From IMG/VR virus record IMGVR_UViG_3300025648_000100, positions 1 to 22,126 of that record: a stretch of 22,126 nucleotides of DNA; one strand, given 5' to 3'. This document shows, piece after piece, positions 3,681 through 15,540 of the stretch (positions are counted from its first letter, which is position 1; each line of letters begins with the position of its first letter). The notes below the pieces were generated by a model. That model was given only the letters and a program-made list of their open reading frames with translations, ran no database searches and had not been told where the DNA came from. The position numbers and the translations under genes are program-made. This DNA is from a virus.

Positions 3681-4658
3681 TCATGCCAATGACCAGTCGC
3701 GGATCAACTTGGTTTGCGCGGCGTGCACGGCCTGCACGAGCGTGATTTCCTTCTTGGACCGCGCCTTGATCTCCGTGGCCAGCTTCAACTGCTTGTGCAC
3801 GGCGCGATAGCAGCCCGCGTGCTCGGCGATCTGTTCGCCGAGGTCGCAGACCTGCTCAAACTCGCCGTTGACATCCGGCGCGAGCGACTTCACCAGGTGT
3901 TCGATCAGGGCGCGCGGTTCCGTGGGCTTGATCTCGTAGCGCAGGCCCGTCCGGCTGAAGCGCTGGCTGTCCGCGCCCAAATTCGCCTCCAGGTCAAAGG
4001 TGCCCACCAGGGCGACGGGCGACTGCGTCACATCATGGAAATCGAACAGCCATTGCAGCGCCGGCTTGGTGAGCTTGTGCGCGTCGTCCACGATCAGCAG
4101 CCGGTCCGAGCCGGTGAGCTTGTCGCACATGAATTCGGCGCGCTTGATCGTGTTGTTATAGCCCGCCGATCCCACCGCCCGGAACATCGCGCCCTCAATG
4201 CTGCCCAGGTCGCGCGACCAGCTCCGCACATGGAACACGATGCAGGTGGGGTTGGCTTTCTTGTAGAGTTCAATCGCGCGCGACTTGCCCTCGCCGCTGT
4301 GCGCGAGGATTTCGCCGACGTCGTTGGTCTTGCGGATGAACTCCAGCGCGGCGTGCAACTGTTCGCTCTCGGAAGTCGTCACCGTCTCCACGCCGCTGGC
4401 CTGGCGGCGGGCGTCGTTCTGAAACGAGTCCTGCAAGCTCTTCTCGAACTTGGCGAGATCGCCGGTGAATTTCTTCGGGTCGAAATCCGGCTGGCAATAC
4501 TGGCTGACGTAGCTGGAATTCATGCCCAGGCGTTTGGCCAGTTTGTTGTTGGAGTAATATTCCTTGGTCGGCCCCGCCCGGAATTCGAGCAGGCGCTGGC
4601 GCAGGGTTTCGTTGAATTTAACCGGCGAGGCCGGCGTGGTTAATGATGTCGCGTTCAT
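3681..4658 (-). CDS. MuB-like AAA+ ATPase, transposition target-DNA activator
   Basis: The product from ATG 4658-4656 is 325 residues, close to MuB size. Residues 37-56 form an N-terminal HTH (NKLAKRLGMNSSYVSQYCQ), as in MuB. The Walker A motif is AHSGEGKS (119-126) and Walker B is LLIVDDAH (187-194), followed by an ALVGT sensor strand (216-220) and an SQRFSRTGLR arginine region near 231-240. The C-terminal 80 residues are helical. MuB-type proteins polymerise on target DNA with ATP, recruit and stimulate the transposase, and set target choice. The frame is open to 5042 but that extension is a shadow of the upstream gene. The leader is purine-poor on the plus strand and A-rich in the mRNA, with no Shine-Dalgarno site. 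Confidence 0.85.
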   Translation of the reverse strand: MNATSLTTPASPVKFNETLRQRLLEFRAGPTKEYYSNNKLAKRLGMNSSYVSQYCQPDFDPKKFTGDLAKFEKSLQDSFQNDARRQASGVETVTTSESEQLHAALEFIRKTNDVGEILAHSGEGKSRAIELYKKANPTCIVFHVRSWSRDLGSIEGAMFRAVGSAGYNNTIKRAEFMCDKLTGSDRLLIVDDAHKLTKPALQWLFDFHDVTQSPVALVGTFDLEANLGADSQRFSRTGLRYEIKPTEPRALIEHLVKSLAPDVNGEFEQVCDLGEQIAEHAGCYRAVHKQLKLATEIKARSKKEITLVQAVHAAQTKLIRDWSLA

Positions 4659-4682
4659 TTTTGTTTTTGTTTGTTTGGTGGC

Positions 4683-4698
4683 CGCACCGCTAGGTGCG
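4683..4698. promoter_or_regulatory. Hairpin between the A-B interval ORF and MuB
   Basis: CGCACC-GCTA-GGTGCG is a perfect 6-bp stem with a 4-base loop. It sits between the stop of the 129-aa gene (4700) and the MuB-like start (4658). In the leftward mRNA it is followed by an A/C-rich leader, not by a U-run, so it looks more like an mRNA-processing or translation-tuning hairpin than a terminator. Confidence 0.4.
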
Positions 4699-4699
4699 T

Positions 4700-5089
4700 T
4701 TAAGCAAGCGATAGTTCCGCCTGCAAAATCATTTTGCCGTTGCGCCGCAGGAATTCCTCGGCGAGCGTCTGGCTGGTCAGGGAATAAACATTCAGCCAGC
4801 CGGCGTTGCGGCTGCCGCGCGTGGACTTCATCCGGTGCGCGTAAAAGACGCCGCCCTGGGTCACGCCGATGGGCTTGACCAGGTTCGCGTTCTTCAGCAG
4901 CTCGATCACCGTGCCGGCGATCCCGGTGCCGGTGCCGCGCTCGGTGTCGGGGACAATGTCGGTGGTGAAATTCTGACCGTTCAACGCCAGCGCGTGCTTG
5001 ACGAGCGCCACGGCGAAGTTCTGGACTTCGGGATTCTTCCACACGATCTCCGCGTGGATGGCCTGCTGGAATTTCTGGTCGGGGTTCAT
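4700..5089 (-). CDS. Hypothetical wHTH-like protein between transposase A and ATPase B (129 aa)
   Basis: ATG 5089-5087 encodes 129 residues. An N-terminal helical half (FQQAIHAEIVWKNPEVQNFAVALVKHAL) is followed by a region resembling a winged helix: GIAGTVIELLKNANLVKPIG, then a strand-turn-strand GGVFYAHRMKSTRGSRN and WLNVYSL. The RMKSTRGSRN wing is basic, as expected for a DNA contact. No family name is certain. In Mu, A and B are adjacent, so a gene between them is a distinctive feature and suggests a partner of transposition or replication. The start codon is directly preceded by a 13-bp palindrome that would overlap the ribosome landing site. Confidence 0.6.
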   Translation of the reverse strand: MNPDQKFQQAIHAEIVWKNPEVQNFAVALVKHALALNGQNFTTDIVPDTERGTGTGIAGTVIELLKNANLVKPIGVTQGGVFYAHRMKSTRGSRNAGWLNVYSLTSQTLAEEFLRRNGKMILQAELSLA

Positions 5090-5116: not shown

Positions 5117-7330
5117 TTAAAGTTCCAATGCTTCGCGCGCGATCCGTTCGTCGTCATCGCGGCGCTGCTGGAGTTTTTTGGTTTGCTGCTTCTCGCCCCT
5201 GACCGCGATTTGATGCGCGGCCACCGGCGATGTGACTGCGTCACGGCCACGAGCCTGCGGCTGGACCACGGTCACGAAGCCGTTGTTGTGGTCGCGCATG
5301 GCTTGCAGGCTGGCCTGCTCGCCGGCAGCGAGTTCGGTGGCGCGAGCCTTCGCCACATTGAGCGCGCCAACGGAATGCCGGATGGCGGCAGCCACGGCGT
5401 CGTGATCCGCGTGCCGGGCGAGGCCGCGCCGCAGCCAGGTGCCGAGAATGCCGCCGCGTCCGTCGGTCAGGGTGAGGAAGCGCGGATCGTCGGGGTTGAA
5501 ATAACAGAGGCACTTCGTTTCCGGTGCCAGGGCAAACTCCGGTGCCGGCGGCGCGAAGCGCAGAATCTTGCCCTCGTGCATGAACTCGATCTGGCCGTTG
5601 GCCTCGACGGGCCGGCGGCGCTGCGAGTGTTCGTAAAACGCGGTGATGATTTCCGGCGAGACACGCGTGAACCGGTTGGCATCGGGTCCGCCGATGGACA
5701 GCAGCCGGCCGGCGCGTTCGACGGGCGATTCCATCCGCACCCGGACTTTGCTGCCTTCCGGCGTTGCCCGGTGGCCGTCCGCCAGGACCCAGCAATCGTT
5801 GGTGGCATCATGCCACTCGACGATTTCCTCGAAGCCCTCGCAGTTGTGATCCGTGCGGAGATTTTGCAGCTTGAAGACCTCGAACAATTTCTCGCGCGCC
5901 TGGCTGATGGTCAGGACGGGATAGACCAGCTCCGCGCGATCCTCCGGGCGATGACTGGCCCAAATCTCCCTGGCCTCGTTCTCGCGGGCGGTGAGTTCCG
6001 CCGGGCGCTTGCCGTAGTGCGCGCCGATCTGGCCGGGGAAGTGCGAGGTCATCATGTGCTGAAGGCGGTTGAGGCTTTCCAGCATCGCCTTGCCCTTGGA
6101 ATTGCCCACGGCCTTTTCCCGGTAGCCCGCCGAGGATTTGCCGCCGATCATGGACGAGTAGGAGACGCCGATGCGGTCGCCGAGCATTTCCTCCAGCGCC
6201 ATGCGCGTGGCGTCGGCGAGCGTGGCCGTGCCGTGCTCGATCTTGGCGATGAGTTTCCACGGCGGCAGGCCGTAGGTTTCCAGCAGCCAGCCGAAGAGCT
6301 GCTTCATGTCCTGCAACTTCAGATGCTCCTGCGTGCCGTCGTCGCGGGCCAGCGCCGGCCGCATCCCGAAGCCGAGGAGCATCGTGGTGGCCACGTCGCG
6401 CGCGATCAAAATCCAGAGGTCGCAAATCTGCCCGGTCGCAATATCAATGACGCGGAAATCGCAGCGCACGTCGTCGAACTGGATCAGCTCCATGAATCGC
6501 AGCCCGGCGCGGGTGGAATGGGTTTGGGGCAAATAGGCCCGTGCGGCAGAGCACCCCTCGTGCCGGAGCGCCTTCACGGCTTTGGTGAACTTGGCGCGGG
6601 CCTTGAGCTGTTTGCGGATGTTGGACGATTCCCAACCGGCCGGCAGCAACGCGCGCTGCCGCAGCTCCCAATTTTCCTCGTAGCCTTTCACCGGCTCGGC
6701 CACTCCCTTGTTCGTCCGGCCCGTCGCCCACTGGCGGTGGATGGAGAGGATCGCCTGCTCGCCGGCATCGCCGCGCTTGAAGTCGCCCATGCGCGCGGAC
6801 ACATAATCCAGGAACGCATCCGGCAACCCGCGCTTCGATGCCTGCCACGCCGCGCCGGCCTTGGCGCGATTAACGAGCGTCAGCCAGTCCTGCTGCTTCA
6901 GCCACAGATCATATTTGCCGCGAAAGGTGTTGAGCGGGCCGAACTCGGTGTAGATCGTCAGCGCCTTGCGGCAGGCCGGCTGGACTTTGATGGCCGTTTT
7001 GCCGGTCGTTAATGCCTGGACAAACAGGACCGCCGCCTGCAAGCGCCGGACCGAGCCGCGCAGCTCCAGCGGCAGCCGGTAGAACAGGAACGGCTCCAAT
7101 TCCCACTTGGCCAGCGGCGCGCGGTTGCGGAGATATTCGCGCACGTCGGCGACCGGCTGTTCGGTCGCGCTGACCGTTCCATGTGGAACCAGCAAGCTGC
7201 TGGCGGCGGCGTTCAAAGAAACAACCGGCGCAGGCAACTCGCTCACGCGAGATTCGTGCAGGGTGACATCTTTCGGTTGTCCCTCACTTGAGCTTTGGGC
7301 CGGTTGAAAATTAGAGAGGTCGGAGATCAT
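5117..7330 (-). CDS. MuA-like DDE transposase
   Basis: The product from ATG 7330-7328 is 737 residues, near MuA length. Residues 60-270 are helical with basic segments, fitting the end-binding and catalytic-linker regions. The RNase H-like core starts at MELIQFDDVRCDF (about 280-292), with candidate first catalytic Asp 286 or 287 and the parallel strand CDLWILIARD. The second motif is KIEHGTAT (363-370), where an Asp is expected but Glu365 is seen. The last is KGKAMLESLNR (412-422), with Glu418. Spacings of about 79 and 53 residues resemble those of MuA. A Mu-type beta-barrel follows (about 515-595), and the C-terminus (about 640-737) is charged and helical, the region that contacts MuB in Mu. 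It catalyses strand transfer for replicative transposition. Long antisense open frames here are GC-driven shadows. Confidence 0.88.
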   Translation of the reverse strand: MISDLSNFQPAQSSSEGQPKDVTLHESRVSELPAPVVSLNAAASSLLVPHGTVSATEQPVADVREYLRNRAPLAKWELEPFLFYRLPLELRGSVRRLQAAVLFVQALTTGKTAIKVQPACRKALTIYTEFGPLNTFRGKYDLWLKQQDWLTLVNRAKAGAAWQASKRGLPDAFLDYVSARMGDFKRGDAGEQAILSIHRQWATGRTNKGVAEPVKGYEENWELRQRALLPAGWESSNIRKQLKARAKFTKAVKALRHEGCSAARAYLPQTHSTRAGLRFMELIQFDDVRCDFRVIDIATGQICDLWILIARDVATTMLLGFGMRPALARDDGTQEHLKLQDMKQLFGWLLETYGLPPWKLIAKIEHGTATLADATRMALEEMLGDRIGVSYSSMIGGKSSAGYREKAVGNSKGKAMLESLNRLQHMMTSHFPGQIGAHYGKRPAELTARENEAREIWASHRPEDRAELVYPVLTISQAREKLFEVFKLQNLRTDHNCEGFEEIVEWHDATNDCWVLADGHRATPEGSKVRVRMESPVERAGRLLSIGGPDANRFTRVSPEIITAFYEHSQRRRPVEANGQIEFMHEGKILRFAPPAPEFALAPETKCLCYFNPDDPRFLTLTDGRGGILGTWLRRGLARHADHDAVAAAIRHSVGALNVAKARATELAAGEQASLQAMRDHNNGFVTVVQPQARGRDAVTSPVAAHQIAVRGEKQQTKKLQQRRDDDERIAREALEL

Positions 7331-8684: not shown

Positions 8685-9184
8685 TGCATCCTCCCCTGGA
8701 GAAATTTCTCGAAGCTCTCGCGGCTGATCGTCCACGTGCCGCCGGGGCCGGGCTGTGATTTCTTCAGCGCCACGAGCTGGCCGGCCAGGATCAGGTTCTC
8801 CACGTGGCCCCGGTCGCAGAGCAGCGCGCGGCGGATTTCCAGGCCGGTGACGACGGGTTTCTTGTGCGGCACCACGAGCCGGAAAATCTTGTCCCATTCC
8901 AGCTCGTGGTATTTGTTGCCGCCGGTCGCGCGGAAAAACTCAATGCTCTTGGTCAGCACGCGCAGCTCGCATTTGCCGAGATCGTCCACCGCGATGTTGA
9001 AGCCGATGAGGAAGCGGGACTCGACGAGTTCGCGTATCTGCTGCACGTCGATGTCGAACTCGCCGAGGTCGCGCAGGACGGTCTTCACATCGCTCACCGG
9101 CCGGAAGCGCGGATCGCGCAGGCCGAGCTGCGTCTGGATGCTGGGCGGCAGGAACTGAACCGGCTTGTCGGCGAGGGCGAGCAT
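8681..9184 (-). CDS. HTH/excisionase-like DNA-binding protein (167 aa)
   Basis: I start at ATG 9184-9182 (MLALADKPVQFLPP); the frame is open to 9241 but that part overlaps the AT-rich repeat. The N-terminal 100 residues include a DVKTVLRDLGEFDIDVQQIREL helix pair and a strand-rich region of uncertain fold. Residues 108-165 form a winged HTH resembling excisionase/MerR-like domains: VVTGLEIRRALLCDRGHVENLI, a GQL turn, a wing with PGPGGTW, and an ISRESFEKFLQ recognition-support helix. It probably binds DNA as a regulator or an accessory recombination factor in the early operon. Confidence 0.65.
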   Translation of the reverse strand: MLALADKPVQFLPPSIQTQLGLRDPRFRPVSDVKTVLRDLGEFDIDVQQIRELVESRFLIGFNIAVDDLGKCELRVLTKSIEFFRATGGNKYHELEWDKIFRLVVPHKKPVVTGLEIRRALLCDRGHVENLILAGQLVALKKSQPGPGGTWTISRESFEKFLQGRMQ

Positions 9185-9186
9185 AG

Positions 9187-9212
9187 GGCGATTTACAATT
9201 GATGATTTACGA
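9187..9212. repeat. AT-rich gene-end repeat, copy 2
   Basis: Minus-strand reading is ATCGTAAATCATCAATTG followed by TAAATCG. It encodes the last residues (IVNHQL) and the stop of the membrane-protein gene ending at 9193, and fills the gap before the HTH gene. The TCGTAAATC core is shared with copies at 7331-7363 and 11932-11957. Confidence 0.5.
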
Positions 9213-9958: not shown

Positions 9959-10336
9959 ATGAAAGAAAAGTTACAATTTGCGGATCGGCTGTCCGAGTTA
10001 ATGCTCAAGCATGGAGGTTTGAACGCGCACCAGTTGAGCAAAGTCGTGGGCCTTTCCCATGTCACCATCGGGAATTATCTGGTGGGGAAGCCGCCGAAAT
10101 CACTGCACCTGGTAAGCATCGCGCAATATTTCCATGTCTCCACGGACTGGCTGCTGGGTTTGAGGGGTGAGGGAATGTATGATGAGAAGGGCGGCATCAA
10201 GCCGGGCTTTGAAACGGGAATGGTTTTAAATGATGCGCCGCCTAAAAAAGAAATTGCCCGGCTGACTAAAATCGCCGACGGTCTCGCTGATCAACTGTCC
10301 GAATTAAGAAAAACCATCAAGGAACTTGAACCATGA
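9959..10336 (+). CDS. XRE-family phage repressor (C-like, 125 aa)
   Basis: ATG 9959 begins a 125-residue protein. Residues 5-67 are a canonical XRE helix-turn-helix: FADRLSELMLKHGG, HQLSKVVGLSHVTIGNYLVGK, and the closing LVSIAQYFHVSTDWLLGL signature. Residues 70-97 are a linker and 98-125 a predicted coiled coil (IARLTKIADGLADQLSELRKTIKEL) that could dimerise it. There is no LexA/CI-type peptidase domain, so classic RecA-triggered self-cleavage is not expected. It is divergent from the Ner-like gene, the arrangement expected for an immunity repressor. Its first codons contain a third operator-like repeat (9966-9976), which suggests autoregulation. The next gene overlaps its stop as ATGA. Confidence 0.8.
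   Translation: MKEKLQFADRLSELMLKHGGLNAHQLSKVVGLSHVTIGNYLVGKPPKSLHLVSIAQYFHVSTDWLLGLRGEGMYDEKGGIKPGFETGMVLNDAPPKKEIARLTKIADGLADQLSELRKTIKELEP
9966..9976 (-). promoter_or_regulatory. Operator-like repeat, copy 3
   Basis: Minus-strand reading is TTGTAACTTTT, one base different from copies 1 and 2. It lies at codons 3-6 of the XRE repressor gene and could mediate autoregulation. Confidence 0.35.
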
Positions 10337-10641
10337 AAAATCTATTCTGCCTCATCGTCGCTGGTGCGCTGCTCGGCGCTTTCTCAACCAATGCCCAGGA
10401 CGACTCGATTCAAATTACAAACAGCGACTTAAAAATTCCATCGAACTGGCGGCTCGTAACTGTGGTTAAAGACAGGGAGGTTGCCGGCTTGATTGGATAC
10501 ACGCTCTGGTTCCAGGACCCATCTGGATCAGTTCACGCGATTAGCACAAGCCGTGACTTAATGGGCAAATATAAAATCACTCCCGAAATCACGGTGTTTT
10601 CTTCCACTACTAATTCTACTGCCCAATTATCACCAAAATAA
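10333..10641 (+). CDS. Secreted small protein co-transcribed with the repressor (102 aa)
   Basis: ATG 10333 overlaps the repressor stop as ATGA. The first 22 residues form a clear signal peptide: MKN, a hydrophobic core LFCLIVAGALLGAF and an STNAQDD cleavage region with A at -1. The mature part, about 80 residues, looks strand-rich (WRLVTVVKDREVAGLIGYTLWFQD, then GSVHAISTS) with Ser/Thr-rich ends. No family is recognised. Coupling to the repressor implies expression in the lysogen, so a lysogenic-conversion or superinfection-exclusion role in the periplasm is an inference from position. Confidence 0.65.
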   Translation: MKNLFCLIVAGALLGAFSTNAQDDSIQITNSDLKIPSNWRLVTVVKDREVAGLIGYTLWFQDPSGSVHAISTSRDLMGKYKITPEITVFSSTTNSTAQLSPK

Positions 10642-10677
10642 TTCCCGCCATAGATAAGTAAATCTCCCGCACAAAAA

Positions 10678-11202
10678 ATGAACTGGTGGTTTCCTCTCGC
10701 GATGGTTTGCATCGCGGCTGGCTTAATTTTCTTCGCGGGCTGGATCGCAGAAAAAAAACGGAATCAAGACAGCTTTGAAGCGCCGAAACCGCAAATTGAA
10801 ATTCCAAAAATAAAAGTGAGCTTCGGGCGTTCTGCTCCGACGCCGGATGCTGAAGCTGAAAAGAAATGGGTGGATTTAGTAGGTGAGAAAGTAATCTCTG
10901 ATATAAACCGAAAGTCGGCGGAGGCGCGAAAAAAGCAGGATAAGTTTTACGATCATCTAGCCAAACTGAAATATCCTCTTAGCAAACCTTCGGTCAGAAA
11001 ATTCACCAGGTTCCGGCTTCAAGAAATGCGGGACGCGGGAATTGAATTCGTGAGGTTGTTGCCAAGCCCCAATCCGCCCATGCGCTGCGCCTCGTGTCTG
11101 GAGTTGCAGGGAATGCGGATTCCGATTGCGGACGCGACGCTCCTGCCATTTCCCGATTGCGACGCCAAACATTGCGGCTGCATTTGGCTCGCTGTCAAAT
11201 GA
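10678..11202 (+). CDS. Membrane-anchored protein with C-terminal Cys/His cluster (174 aa)
   Basis: ATG 10678 follows a 36-bp spacer. Residues 3-23 form one membrane helix (FPLAMVCIAAGLIFFAGWIA) followed by KKR, favouring a cytoplasmic C-terminus. Residues 28-60 are a Pro-rich linker and 58-118 charged helices. The C-terminal 55 residues hold C137, C140, C161, H165, C166 and C168 around a GIEFVRLLPSPNPPMRC strand and an LPFPDC turn. The C-x2-C plus C-x3-HC-x-C pattern resembles the Cys-rich tails of MuF/SPP1-gp7-type proteins and probably binds zinc. The function is unknown. It belongs to the probable lysogen-expressed group with the repressor and the secreted protein. Confidence 0.65.
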   Translation: MNWWFPLAMVCIAAGLIFFAGWIAEKKRNQDSFEAPKPQIEIPKIKVSFGRSAPTPDAEAEKKWVDLVGEKVISDINRKSAEARKKQDKFYDHLAKLKYPLSKPSVRKFTRFRLQEMRDAGIEFVRLLPSPNPPMRCASCLELQGMRIPIADATLLPFPDCDAKHCGCIWLAVK

Positions 11203-11273
11203 CGCCGCCGGAGTATAAACCCTTTTCATAAAATCTTGCCAAAGACAGTAGGTTTCTGATTTAGTGGCAGCAC

Positions 11274-11287
11274 GGCCCGGCCGGGCC
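11274..11287. repeat. Perfect GC palindrome GGCCCGGCCGGGCC
   Basis: A 14-bp perfect palindrome in the 296-bp spacer. There is no loop and no T-run, so it is not a standard terminator. It may be a protein site or, as part of a longer RNA, a stem. Confidence 0.35.
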
Positions 11288-11414
11288 CTTGATTCTTCCT
11301 TCGCCGGCCATTTCCAGAAAAACCGCGAGACCGCGATGGTCGCGTATTATCTTTTCCGACTTCTGGCATTGTTGCGGCCGTGAACAACGCGACATCCGTT
11401 CAACTCAAAACTCT

Positions 11415-11477
11415 CCCTCGCCTGGGACTTTCCTCCGGTGCGCGGTCGCGCGCGTCCCACTCTGTCCTGGGCGAGGG
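11415..11477 (+). promoter_or_regulatory. Nested stem-loop RNA leader of the lipoprotein gene
   Basis: CCCTCGCC (11415-11422) pairs exactly with GGCGAGGG (11470-11477). Immediately inside, TGGGAC (11423-11428) pairs with GTCCCA (11454-11459). Within that, GCGC (11440-11443) pairs with GCGC (11448-11451) across a GGTC loop. The structure ends about 21 nt before the ATG at 11499, a good place for a translation-control or mRNA-stabilising leader. Confidence 0.5.
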
Positions 11478-11498
11478 GTATTCAACCAAAGGCTAAAC

Positions 11499-11930
11499 AT
11501 GAAAAATAAAATCGTTTCCCTATTTAAAAAAGGCGGCATCGCGCTGGCGTTGGTGGCCACCACGCTAGTGGTCGGCTGCTCCACGACGAACAAGCAGCAG
11601 ATCGTCAACACCATTTCCGGCGACGGTGTTTACGGCAAGGTGGCGGTGCCCATCACGTCGTCCACCTCCATCGGTGCCAGCCTCTTCGTGGGCCGGATGA
11701 ACAACACGACCGTGGTGCAACCCACGGACACGAACAAAGTCTATGCGCCGAGCCTCACGGTGGCGGCGGCCGGCGCGGGCAAGCAAAGCGTCTCCGGCGG
11801 CACCACCAACACCGCCTCGGCGGGGATCACCGACGGCAGCCGCGATGTGAGCATCCTCACCACGGGCGACGCCGCGCTCTCGGCCGGCAGCGGCACCAAC
11901 ACGCTGCTCAATATTACGGGTGGAAAATAA
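11499..11930 (+). CDS. Lipoprotein (143 aa)
   Basis: ATG 11499 gives MKNKIVSLFKKGG, then a hydrophobic core, and a LVVGC lipobox at residues 23-27, so Cys27 should be lipidated after cleavage by signal peptidase II. The mature part, about 116 residues, is rich in Ser, Thr, Ala, Gly and Asn (VSGGTTNTASAGITDGSRDVS) and looks like a flexible or beta-rich surface domain. It contains VYGKVAVPITSSTSIGASLFVGRMN, which suggests strands. No family is recognised. A structured leader precedes it and the lipase follows 30 bp downstream. An envelope-modifying cargo role or a lysis role is possible. Confidence 0.7.
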   Translation: MKNKIVSLFKKGGIALALVATTLVVGCSTTNKQQIVNTISGDGVYGKVAVPITSSTSIGASLFVGRMNNTTVVQPTDTNKVYAPSLTVAAAGAGKQSVSGGTTNTASAGITDGSRDVSILTTGDAALSAGSGTNTLLNITGGK

Positions 11931-11931
11931 A

Positions 11932-11957
11932 AAAATCGTAATTCGTAAATCTTAAAT
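11932..11957. repeat. AT-rich gene-end repeat, copy 3
   Basis: Plus-strand reading includes ATCGTAATTCGTAAATC followed by TTAAATCG. It lies just after the lipoprotein stop and just before the TTG start of the lipase, and shares the TCGTAAATC core with the copies at 7331-7363 and 9187-9212. Confidence 0.5.
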
Positions 11958-11960
11958 CGC

Positions 11961-12761
11961 TTGAACCTCGTCACCAACCAATTCGACCTCGGCAACGCGC
12001 AGGCGTGCGCGGTGCTTTCGATGGTGGCTTATGGCCGCAGCGGCGCGCTGGCGGCGTCGCAGGTCATGCTCTCGGTGCCGGAGACGGACACGTATTGTCT
12101 GGTTCAGGAATCCGACGACTGCATTGTGGTGGCGTTTCGCGGCACGGACAGCATCCGCGACTGGATCACGGACGCGAAGTTTTTCCGCGAGCTATACATG
12201 GTCACTGCCGGCGTGAATGTAGAAGTCCACGAAGGTTTTCTTGAAGCTTGGCGCAGCATCCTTCCGGTGCTCAACGCACATCTAAAAAAAATCTCGGTGG
12301 CCGACCGCAAGATATTCATCACCGGCCATTCGCTTGGCGGCGCGCTCGGCATTCTCTCGGCGCTGCAACTGAAATGCCAGGGTTTCCAGATCGCGCAGGT
12401 TTACACCTTTGGGCAGCCGCGCGTGGGCAACGGCGCGTTCAAGCGCCTGTATGACGCCGCGCTGGGCAATGTGACGTTCCGGCTGGTGTATCAGGAAGAC
12501 ATCGTGCCGCGCCTGCCGCACCTGCCGTCGGTGCGCGATCCCTACCGGCACTGCGGCCGGGAGGTCTTCATCTCCAGCACGACGCCGGTGCGTCAAGTCG
12601 CCGACTTGTGGATCAATCCGCCGGTGTGGCGGCTGCTTATTTCGGATGCCTGGGGAATCTACCGGGCGTTCACCATCTCGAAGTTCGCGGGCGCGCTCGA
12701 CCCGATCCGGGATCATTTCATCATCAACTACACGAGGGCGCTGGAAGGGATTCAATCATGA
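11961..12761 (+). CDS. Class 3 lipase-like serine hydrolase (266 aa)
   Basis: The best start is TTG 11961; the first ATG is at 12020 and would cut the conserved N-terminal helix. The alpha/beta-hydrolase features are complete: the oxyanion region VVAFRGTDSIRDW (about 56-68), the nucleophile elbow ITGHSLGGALG with Ser124, the VYTFGQPRVGN strand (147-157), catalytic Asp180 in YQEDIVPRLP and His197 in DPYRHCGREVF. This order and spacing is that of Lipase_3 enzymes, which hydrolyse acylglycerols or phospholipids. There is no signal peptide, so it is either cytoplasmic or released at lysis. Phage lipases are rare; cargo, envelope degradation at lysis, or an immunity-related role are all open. It overlaps the next gene as ATGA. 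Confidence 0.85.
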   Translation: MNLVTNQFDLGNAQACAVLSMVAYGRSGALAASQVMLSVPETDTYCLVQESDDCIVVAFRGTDSIRDWITDAKFFRELYMVTAGVNVEVHEGFLEAWRSILPVLNAHLKKISVADRKIFITGHSLGGALGILSALQLKCQGFQIAQVYTFGQPRVGNGAFKRLYDAALGNVTFRLVYQEDIVPRLPHLPSVRDPYRHCGREVFISSTTPVRQVADLWINPPVWRLLISDAWGIYRAFTISKFAGALDPIRDHFIINYTRALEGIQS

Positions 12762-13075
12762 TGCTCGCTCTTTTCGATCCGGCCACTGACAGCGTAATGG
12801 AAAAAGTTTCCGTGACGGCCGGCGGCATCTTCGCCGCGATCTATTACGCCAAGGAGATTTTTTATCCACGCAAACAGTCCAGTCAGCTCGACGTGAACAT
12901 CGTGGAAACGCTCGCCACCAAAAACGAGCTGAAGGAAGTCGAGCGGGCCACCAAGGCGGAAGATGCGATCCTGCACAAGCGCATCACGGATCAGGGGACA
13001 AACATCCAAAAAACCATCGCGCACATTCCGCACGAGCTGATGGCGCTGTTGAAGAATGCGGGAATCATCCACTGA
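12758..13075 (+). CDS. Small TM plus coiled-coil protein, DUF2730-like by position (105 aa)
   Basis: ATG 12758 overlaps the lipase stop as ATGA; a second ATG at 12761 is also possible. Residues 17-38 are moderately hydrophobic (VSVTAGGIFAAIYYAKEIFY) and may form one membrane helix. Residues 44-85 are a coiled coil (VETLATKNELKEVERATKAEDAI). The tail is amphipathic. A TM helix followed by a coiled coil just before a small wHTH protein and the terminases is the layout of Mu gp25/DUF2730 proteins, so I name it by position only. A holin-like or packaging-associated role is conceivable. Confidence 0.55.
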   Translation: MMLALFDPATDSVMEKVSVTAGGIFAAIYYAKEIFYPRKQSSQLDVNIVETLATKNELKEVERATKAEDAILHKRITDQGTNIQKTIAHIPHELMALLKNAGIIH

Positions 13076-13078
13076 TTT

Positions 13079-13336
13079 ATGATTGACCAGGACATAAAAA
13101 AATTTGTGCTGCGGCGGCTGCTGCAAAAGAACAGCGAGCCGGCCACGGCCACCGAGATCAAGCTGGCGATCCGCTCGGCTTTCGCCGCCGCGTTCACCGA
13201 GGGCGATCTCGACAGCTATCTCGCGCAGCTCGAAGCCGACAGCTACATCGCCGGCACCAGCGACGATTTGAGCGGCACGCTCTGGGCGCTCACGCCCAAG
13301 GGAAAAATCCGCGCACAGCAACTGTTCAAGGCATAG
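13079..13336 (+). CDS. Winged-helix small phage protein (85 aa)
   Basis: ATG 13079 lies 3 bp after the upstream stop. The 85-residue product has a wHTH pattern: IKKFVLRRLLQKN, TATEIKLAIRSAFAAAF, EGDLDSYLAQLEADSYI as recognition and support helices, then a short wing LSGTLWALTPKGK. The SGT.WALTPKG end is typical of small phage winged-helix proteins encoded just upstream of terminase genes in Mu-like phages. A role in packaging or late regulation is inferred from that position. Confidence 0.65.
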   Translation: MIDQDIKKFVLRRLLQKNSEPATATEIKLAIRSAFAAAFTEGDLDSYLAQLEADSYIAGTSDDLSGTLWALTPKGKIRAQQLFKA

Positions 13337-13348
13337 CTCCACCAGTGA

Positions 13349-14014
13349 ATGAAAACAGCACCAACAAAAACAGCCGCCTGGGAACAGGATTCGTTCTGGC
13401 GCGAAGTGGTCGCCGTGCTGACGGGCGGCAAAAAGCTGCGCGGCGAACATTACTTGCAGTCGTTGTCCGGCGAGGAATTGGAGCAGTTGCGCTCGGCCTT
13501 GGCCTTTGCTGGCACGCTATTGGAACAGCAGAAACTTTGTCCGCCGCGCCGGGGCGGAGCGACGGACGGATCGCTGCCGCCGGTTTCGCTGCTGTCGGAA
13601 ATTTCGCAGGCGGTGCGCGAGGTGCTAACGCTGCGGTCGCTGCAACGGCAGGACCTGGTCAGCGCGGCGACGAAGGATCGCTGCGGGCAGCTCGGACTGG
13701 ACCCGCAACTGACGAACGCCGTGGTGCGCGTGGTGGCCGAGGAGGCGTTGCGCCAGCAGGCGGAGAACCAGGTGGGCAACTTTGCGATCTCGGCGGCGAA
13801 CGTGCTGCTGATGGCCGAGGGGATGCGCACGAAGGGCAAACTCGAAGAGGTGAAGGTGGATTTGCGCAAACAGAAACTGAAGCTCGACGAGCGGCACATT
13901 GCGATGCTGGAAAAGAAAGCCGCGCAGGCGGAAGCCGCGAAGGGGATTTTGGGCGACAAGGCTTTGACCGAGGATCAGAAACGTCAACGGATGCTTTCAC
14001 TGTTTGGAATGTAA
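13349..14014 (+). CDS. Small-terminase-like (DUF3486-like) protein (221 aa)
   Basis: ATG 13349 gives 221 residues; the stop TAA shares its last base with the ATG of the large terminase (TAATG). The N-terminal 50 residues are helical with YLQSLSGEELEQLRSALAF. A Leu-rich centre SLLSEISQAVREVLTLRSLQ follows, and a long C-terminal coiled coil with VDLRKQKLKLDERHIAMLEKK (about 170-195) ends in LTEDQKRQRMLSLFG. That helical C-terminus and the placement directly before the large terminase match the Mu gp27/DUF3486 small terminase group, though the N-terminal HTH is not obvious. Expected role: recognition of the packaging start and loading of the motor. Confidence 0.55.
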   Translation: MKTAPTKTAAWEQDSFWREVVAVLTGGKKLRGEHYLQSLSGEELEQLRSALAFAGTLLEQQKLCPPRRGGATDGSLPPVSLLSEISQAVREVLTLRSLQRQDLVSAATKDRCGQLGLDPQLTNAVVRVVAEEALRQQAENQVGNFAISAANVLLMAEGMRTKGKLEEVKVDLRKQKLKLDERHIAMLEKKAAQAEAAKGILGDKALTEDQKRQRMLSLFGM

Positions 14015-15540
14015 TGGCCAACACCAAATCCATTTCCAAAAAAGAAGCCTTCGAGATTCTGCGCGCGAAGAAAGAGGCGGCGCTGAAGACCGCCGGTGTG
14101 GCGTTGCGCGAGGTGCCGCTGGACGAGCTGGAGAAACGTGCCGCCGGCCACAAGCTCGGCGTGAACTGCAACGGCTGGGAGAATCCCTACGCCAAAGACG
14201 ATCCGCGCAATCTGCTGCTCGAATATCAGTTTGCGATCCGGGAGGACAAAAGCCGCTTCAAAATTTGTTTGCAAGCCCGCCAGACCGGCAAGGATTTCAC
14301 CAGCGAGAGCGAGGCCGCCGAGGATTGCCAGGTGAAAAAAACCGAGTGGATGATCGCCGCGCCGTCCGAGCGTCAGGCGCTAGACTCGCTTGACCAGGGG
14401 AAAGTATGGGCGGAGGCGTTCGACCTGAAGGTGGCGGATTACGACGAGCAGCGCGAGGGCGGCAACAGTGAGACCCTGCTGAAGAGCGCCGAGATTATTT
14501 TCAGCAACGGCAGCAAGATGCGCGCAGTGCCGGGCAAGCCGAACACGGTGCGCGGCCGCAGCGCCAATTTGCTGCTCACGGAATTTGATTTCTTTGAAGA
14601 CCCGCCGGCGACGTGGCGCGCGGTCCTGCCGTCCATCACCAACCCGCTGCGTGGTGGTGAAAAGAAAGTCCGGCTCATCTCCACGCCGAACGGTTCCGGT
14701 TCGGCCATGCACAAAATCTGGACCAAGACCGACAGCGACAAGATGAAATGGTCGCGCCACCTGGTGACGATCTATCACGCGGTGCTGATGGGTTTGCCGG
14801 TGGACATCGAGCAGCTCCGCCAGGCGTTTGACGATGCGGACGGTTTCGCGCAGGAATTTCTCTGCCAGTTTCTCGACGGGTCCAATGTGCTGCTGCCTTA
14901 CGACCTGATCGCAATGGCGGAAAGCGCGGACGCCACCGAGATGTGGAACCTCGCTGACAGCGGCAAATCCAATCCGGTTTTTTGCGGGGTGGATTTCGGC
15001 CGCACCAATGACCCAACCGTCTGCTGGACCTTGCAGCAGGTTGGCGATGTGTTGTGGACGCGCGAGGTTTTGGTTTTGAAAAGCATCAGCTCGCCGGATC
15101 AGGAACAGATTTTGAAAAGCCGGTTGCAGGCCGCGCAGCGCACCTGCTTCGATTATACCGGGCCGGGCATCGGCCTCGGCGATTACCTCGTGGATGAAAA
15201 ACGCGGCGGCTTCGGCCAATGGAAACCAGCCGAGCATAAATTTGGCAAGGTGGAACTGTTCACCTTCTCCGCGCAATCCAAGCGGCTGCTGTTTCCGACG
15301 CTGCGTTCCCGGTTCAAGGATGCGCAGGGCGCTTGCAAAATCCGCGTGCCGATTTCCACCACCATCCGCGAAGACCTGCACGAAATGCAGCAGGTCATCA
15401 CGAACGGTGAATATAACTATTGGAGCCGACGCACGCGCGAAGGCCATTCCGACCGCTGCACCGCGCTGGCCCTGGCCGTCCGTGCCGCCGGTGATCTGCA
15501 CCGCGTCTGGGGCGGCGGGAAAGGGAGCATACTAATATGA
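14014..15540 (+). CDS. Terminase large subunit, Mu gp28-like ATPase-nuclease
   Basis: The product from ATG 14014 is 508 residues. The adenine/Walker A region is KICLQARQTGKDF (83-95); the usual Ser/Thr after GK is Asp94. Walker B is LLLTEFDFF (186-194), and coupling motif III is probably LISTPNGSG (221-229). The RNase H-like nuclease has VDFGRTNDPT (Asp327), a FDYTGPGIG segment (Asp380) and GHSDRCTALALA (Asp480), so all three metal-binding acids are in place. This is the packaging motor that pumps and cuts DNA. The frame stays open upstream through the whole preceding gene, but that is GC shadow: protein quality changes sharply at 14014. The stop overlaps the methylase start as ATGA. Confidence 0.85.
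   Translation: MANTKSISKKEAFEILRAKKEAALKTAGVALREVPLDELEKRAAGHKLGVNCNGWENPYAKDDPRNLLLEYQFAIREDKSRFKICLQARQTGKDFTSESEAAEDCQVKKTEWMIAAPSERQALDSLDQGKVWAEAFDLKVADYDEQREGGNSETLLKSAEIIFSNGSKMRAVPGKPNTVRGRSANLLLTEFDFFEDPPATWRAVLPSITNPLRGGEKKVRLISTPNGSGSAMHKIWTKTDSDKMKWSRHLVTIYHAVLMGLPVDIEQLRQAFDDADGFAQEFLCQFLDGSNVLLPYDLIAMAESADATEMWNLADSGKSNPVFCGVDFGRTNDPTVCWTLQQVGDVLWTREVLVLKSISSPDQEQILKSRLQAAQRTCFDYTGPGIGLGDYLVDEKRGGFGQWKPAEHKFGKVELFTFSAQSKRLLFPTLRSRFKDAQGACKIRVPISTTIREDLHEMQQVITNGEYNYWSRRTREGHSDRCTALALAVRAAGDLHRVWGGGKGSILI

Follow-up and report, generated by a model that had tools for sequence, protein, structure and literature searches.

We describe a class 3 lipase that sits in the endolysin slot of a Mu-like phage and that probably serves as a late lysis enzyme. 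Specifically, our reading, which we hold with moderate confidence, is that the genes following the repressor of this temperate Mu-like phage form two units: the first comprises the repressor with gene A (and gene B, if it belongs there), and the second is a lysis-packaging operon that runs from gene C through the lipase and genes E and F to the terminase small (TerS) and large (TerL) subunits. The original prediction had instead placed A, B, C and the lipase together in one envelope-directed cargo cassette. We infer the late expression of the lipase, its lipid substrate and its part in lysis, and likewise what A, B, C and E do.

The window, by which we mean the whole stretch of DNA analysed, is a 22,126-base IMG/VR virus record and is a fragment of a Mu-like phage that ends in the head genes. 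Leftward genes encode a Mu Gam-like protein (1122-1754), a MuB-like protein (3681-5042) and, at the position of MuA, a long protein (5117-7330), while rightward genes encode the repressor, TerL, a Dam-like methylase, portal/Mu F and capsid proteins. The Gam-like, MuB-like and portal/Mu F genes bear out the earlier description of the phage as Mu-like, and all four genes of the proposed cassette are present in the sequence where they had been placed. Gene calls came from simple codon scoring, and the contigs compared are incomplete. The features discussed below are as follows.

9959-10336, + strand: repressor, HTH_3/BetR-like (Pfam HTH_3, 7.9e-7; PHROG transcriptional repressor)
10333-10641, + strand: gene A, small secreted protein with a signal peptide; its ATG overlaps the repressor stop
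10678-11202, + strand: gene B, N-terminal transmembrane (TM) segment and C-terminal Cys cluster (from sequence)
11203-11498, no strand: intergenic region of 296 nt between the repressor-side unit and the putative lysis unit
11499-11930, + strand: gene C, lipoprotein with a VVGC lipobox, ATG start at 11499, just upstream of the lipase
11961-12761, + strand: class 3 lipase, no signal peptide, in the endolysin slot (PF01764, 1.2e-33)
12758-13075, + strand: gene E, N-terminal TM segment followed by a coiled coil; overlaps the lipase stop by ATGA
13079-13336, + strand: gene F, small winged-helix protein at a Mu gp26-like position (weak wHTH match)
13349-14014, + strand: gene G, terminase small subunit at a Mu gp27-like position (assigned by position)
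14014-15540, + strand: terminase large subunit, TerL (PF03237, 2e-9; phrog_2, 5e-35)

An intact lipase without an export signal

The lipase scored 116.5 bits against Lipase_3 (PF01764; E 1.2e-33), where the curated cut-off is 22, and its triad (S124-D180-H252, with a GHSLG elbow) is invariant in 21 viral homologues, so that the full-triad class 3 lipase expected from the original prediction is confirmed as a family assignment. The predicted model (pLDDT 88) has a class 3 lipase/feruloyl-esterase fold, the closest folds in the PDB being feruloyl esterase A and fungal lipases (E about 1e-13), and its putative activity is lipolytic or that of an esterase. The gene begins with TTG, a start supported by the ATG or GTG that relatives have at the same site. 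No export signal was seen on the lipase in the window or in its relatives. Thus, the "envelope-directed" label stands for A, B and C, which carry a signal peptide, a TM segment and a lipobox, respectively, but not for the lipase.

Elsewhere among phages, the Cylindrospermopsis phages Cr-LKS4 and RM-2018a have a Lipase_3 domain with about 35% identity over 146 aa to the window lipase; the match covers 55% of the latter, and those phages are about 100 kb. A literature search on class 3 lipases in phages returned no relevant paper.

Conservation of the lipase locus among Mu-like phages

A single lipase sequence gave no match in IMG/VR, and an alignment was needed to find homologues: a search with a two-sequence lipase alignment yielded 31 viral loci, while TerL as bait yielded 67 loci. 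In about 25 distinct loci, homologues of MuA, portal, capsid or TerL flank the lipase and mark the phage as Mu-like; this holds down to the most divergent cases, the TerL identity of lipase contigs to the window running from 81% to about 25%. In most of these loci the order is exported gene, lipase, TM/coiled-coil gene, wHTH gene, TerS and TerL. The gene that follows the lipase is tightly coupled to it, starting -4 to +31 nt from its end in most loci and overlapping it by ATGA in the window.

Alternatively, the lipase might serve auxiliary metabolism or late host takeover, freeing fatty acids from host lipids while being dispensable for lysis. It is, after all, an intact enzyme without an export signal, from a family that also has many cellular members. 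Yet its place in the endolysin slot is fixed despite the very divergent terminases, and it is accompanied by an exported gene but never by a recognised endolysin, so we regard this alternative as distinctly unlikely.

Two further observations concern the surroundings of these lipases. In L089 (1854-2627), L099 (8822-9544) and L100 (8648-9397), a Dam-like methylase separates the lipase from the genes that lie downstream; it is 65-79% identical to that of the window, which instead follows TerL. Separately, two Verrucomicrobiota genomes encode a protein of 560-600 aa with a class 3 lipase domain (L213 and L225; G027 C177 and G423 C36), and the one in G423 is followed by a SIR2-like gene, in what could be a defence locus.

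The lipase in the endolysin slot

The lipase unit directly precedes gp26-, gp27- and TerL-like genes, as the Mu-type lysis region does. In lipase-free sister phages, the corresponding slot holds an M15 peptidase (L006, L027, L035, L047, L077 and L072), an Amidase_3 protein (L026, L028, L069 and others) or a CHAP protein (L062, L063 and L042). Muralytic Pfam families were found in at least 8 of 104 slot proteins of lipase-free relatives versus 0 of 119 slot-region proteins that came nearly all from lipase phages (Fisher p 0.002), and many sister phages without the lipase likewise have no recognised endolysin in the slot. No locus held both a lipase and a recognised endolysin, in a comparison that is not fully unbiased, since the lipase served as bait for its own loci and sequences of the comparison set seeded the local endolysin profiles. 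The slot gene of the window gave Lipase_3 only, with no muralytic domain found. Further, in the complete prophage G027, from a Verrucomicrobia subdivision 3 MAG, and the near-complete, 41.7-kb G016, the only such enzyme among the Pfam matches listed (25 of 36 families) was the NlpC/P60 of the tail module. As the window record stops in the head genes, its own endolysin may lie beyond its end. Nor did the lipase phages reveal a holin.

In L002 (7963-8643) and L040 (7216-7959), the place of the lipase is taken by a second, unrelated-looking hydrolase with an H-S-N-G motif; it gave no significant fold match, from a poor model (mean pLDDT 52). In L005, a response-regulator receiver domain protein (8758-9201) is found among the lysis and packaging genes.

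Taken from sequence comparison, the best reading is that the lipase acts as a lysis enzyme in the place of the endolysin or as the helper of an unrecognised one, the second being the more cautious of the two. The "lysis aid" that the original prediction had listed as one option for the lipase is supported by its position in the endolysin slot, with the packaging genes immediately downstream, and this same placement of the exported-protein/lipase pair speaks against the lysogenic role also offered for it. In the mechanism that we propose, the lipase would be synthesised in the cytoplasm at a late stage of infection, would reach the membranes via a membrane lesion or through E as a releasin-like protein, and would hydrolyse envelope lipids or esters, helping the cell to open; the product of gene C would go to the outer membrane.

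How much of lysis falls to the lipase can be read in two ways. One is that it performs an accessory outer-membrane step, as spanins or LysB do, with a classical endolysin that is unrecognised or encoded elsewhere. The lipoprotein or beta-barrel-like partner upstream of the lipase would suit such a step, and LysB sets the precedent of an esterase in lysis cassettes (PMC5707550); against it, Pfam revealed no second enzyme close to the lipase at any of its loci, nor one in the complete prophage G027 among the matches listed. We treat this version as a tentative but substantial possibility. The other, which we consider unlikely, is that the lipase replaces the endolysin as the main lytic enzyme: once freed or activated by way of a releasin-like membrane protein, the cytoplasmic lipase would break the membranes, leaving host autolysins to finish the wall. 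That endolysins can be unrecognisable counts against our reading.

A virion-borne entry enzyme would also fit a late-operon position before the packaging genes, but the tail module carries an NlpC/P60 protein of its own, and the lipase lies not there but in the lysis slot; no support for an entry role emerged, and we judge it extremely unlikely.

Neighbours of the lipase within the putative lysis operon

An exported gene precedes the lipase in all lipase loci examined. Judged by eye across 25 loci, this partner is either a lipoprotein or a protein of beta-barrel-like character whose last residue is F/Y, and it passed a strict hydropathy test in 17 of 18 cases. Gene C has a homologue, 52% identical, beside the lipase in L087, and the lipoprotein before the L099 lipase is 66% identical to the L002 lipoprotein that precedes a different hydrolase-like gene. 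On the other side, E matches the Mu releasin gp25 in size, position and predicted topology, with its counterparts predicted to be N-out/C-in in 17 of 17 cases; as a candidate member of DUF2730 (PF10805), it was set aside, as 0 of 39 records exceeded the cut-off and none did so in the window record. When the pair was considered as a two-component spanin, C is a lipoprotein, whereas E is predicted N-out/C-in and the inner-membrane coiled-coil partner needs N-in/C-out, so no i-spanin was identified. Homologues of gene F, 39-55% identical, follow the lipase in L081, L087, L093, L094 and L097, and PF11985 (Phage_Mu_Gp27) matches two counterparts of gene G in lipase phages.

Between B and C, approximately 140 nt of the gap (11314-11455) are conserved immediately ahead of the exported gene in L084 and L096, where blastn gave identities of 70% over 149 nt and 78% over 100 nt. 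The stretch is possibly a control element of the late operon. L002 and L099 share a stretch similar to this segment. A short motif, TTCCTCCGG...GGTCGCGCG, is common to the gap of the window, L084, L096 and L099; in IMG/VR and two MAGs, its other matches looked like chance. A search of Rfam gave no match, and a terminator between B and C was considered and dropped, as the stems present were not clearly above those of shuffled sequences. The repressor and the second unit point in the same direction, so transcription from the repressor may read through into it.

Repressor-side genes as candidate envelope proteins

The start of gene A and the stop of the repressor overlap by ATGA (10333-10336), precisely the coupling that had been predicted. 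Gene A (GC 46.3%) and gene B (GC 50.1%) both have atypical codon use and negative codon scores, the composition of the repressor is atypical as well, and GC3 is 51-55% in A and B versus 79-83% in C and the lipase (73-83% when the packaging genes are included). A single-sequence search of IMG/VR and the comparison loci revealed no relatives of gene A. For gene B, the single-sequence IMG/VR search gave no match, and its sole relative is a C-terminal stretch of 80 aa in L055 (35% identity, E 4e-8). The repressor itself has a 45% identical counterpart in L002. With A lacking relatives and B matched only at its C terminus, the four-gene set does not co-occur in Mu-like relatives: the pair of exported gene and lipase recurs, but A and B are absent, and the proposal of a single four-gene cargo cassette accordingly falls.

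In most Mu-like relatives, the gene adjoining the repressor (an HTH or ribbon-helix-helix protein) encodes an exported or membrane-bound product, although the sequences are unrelated, and it often overlaps the repressor by ATGA or GTGA (L002, L013, L027, L035 and L096). By eye, about 21 of 24 repressor-adjacent genes are of this kind, with L011 and L012 as exceptions. A strict automated hydropathy test found an N-terminal TM segment in 10 of 21 genes from a hand-picked list of repressor-adjacent genes versus 57 of 517 in the background (p 5e-5); gene A of the window fails this test, although inspection by eye shows an obvious signal peptide. These results support a repressor-coupled slot for variable envelope proteins, in which gene A belongs with the repressor unit, as gene B probably does. 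Plausibly, judging by the ATGA coupling and the positional trend, A (and perhaps B) would be an envelope protein that the lysogen produces to exclude superinfecting phages or to alter the cell surface.

The conversion or superinfection-exclusion locus of the original prediction thereby survives as a candidate reading of the A/B half, which fits such a slot given the exported repressor-adjacent genes of most relatives, but not of the lipase. To extend it to A, B, C and the lipase as one lysogen-expressed cassette, one could point to the shared direction of all four genes downstream of the repressor, the ATGA coupling of A and the recurrence of exported genes beside repressors. However, the lipase recurs without A and B, a 296-nt gap with a conserved stretch precedes C, codon use differs between A/B and C/lipase, and the lipase is coupled to the lysis and packaging side and lacks an export signal. 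We consider the single cassette very unlikely and retain the two-unit arrangement.

Other proteins are found in this region of relatives. Membrane-anchored, zinc-ribbon-like (Cys) proteins recur between the repressor and the lysis unit, which is the place of gene B: L002 (6133-6534), L081 (6700-6888), L084 (6404-6913), L093 (6792-7181), L100 (6665-7090) and L102 (2141-2740). In two lipase phages, L096 (6396-6788) and L091 (6410-6850), the repressor is followed by a lipoprotein, and the two lipoproteins have a similar DUF4177-like stretch.

Host range

Lipase prophages were found in MAGs named as Verrucomicrobia subdivision 3 (L113) and Verrucomicrobiales (L156). On the basis of two MAGs, the host of the window phage is probably a member of the Verrucomicrobiota. 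Among 384 genomes drawn from the same class, 25 had a match to the lipase profile at 1e-20, only some of them phage-like. Our results suggest that some Verrucomicrobiota phages lyse their hosts with help from a lipid-cutting enzyme, and the lipase loci offer a view of lysis in these phages.

Comparison with known lysis and exclusion systems

Tailed phages are described as lysing diderm hosts with a holin or releasin, a muralytic endolysin and a spanin or disruptin. The lysis cluster of Mu comprises the endolysin gp22, the spanins gp23/gp23.1 and the releasin gp25, with DUF2730 genes located no more than five genes downstream from the endolysin (PMC9239132). The window shares with this region its place in the genome, a small N-out/C-in TM protein after the enzyme and a lipoprotein nearby. 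However, the Mu enzyme is a muralytic SAR endolysin, gp22, and that of the window a class 3 lipase; the exported gene comes before the enzyme in the window and after it in Mu; and gp25 is a DUF2730 releasin, whereas E has no DUF2730 match. The likeness thus concerns place and architecture and does not extend to the protein families.

On the repressor side, lambda rexAB are repressor-linked exclusion genes, and gene A is like them in lying beside the repressor. Ltp-type proteins are surface lipoproteins (PMC3952083), with which gene A would share export to the surface. The repressor-coupled slot would be a ready source of candidate exclusion proteins.

For the lipase, the closest parallel is mycobacteriophage LysB, a mycolylarabinogalactan esterase in lysis cassettes (PMC5707550). 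Both are lipolytic or esterase enzymes at a position typical of lysis genes; LysB acts on a lipid layer, and the lipase of the window phage would do so too. LysB works beside the LysA endolysin in mycolate hosts, whereas the window has no recognised endolysin and its probable hosts are diderm Verrucomicrobiota. If our reading is correct, lipid hydrolysis would join the ways in which phages open a Gram-negative-type cell, beyond the mycobacterial example of LysB.
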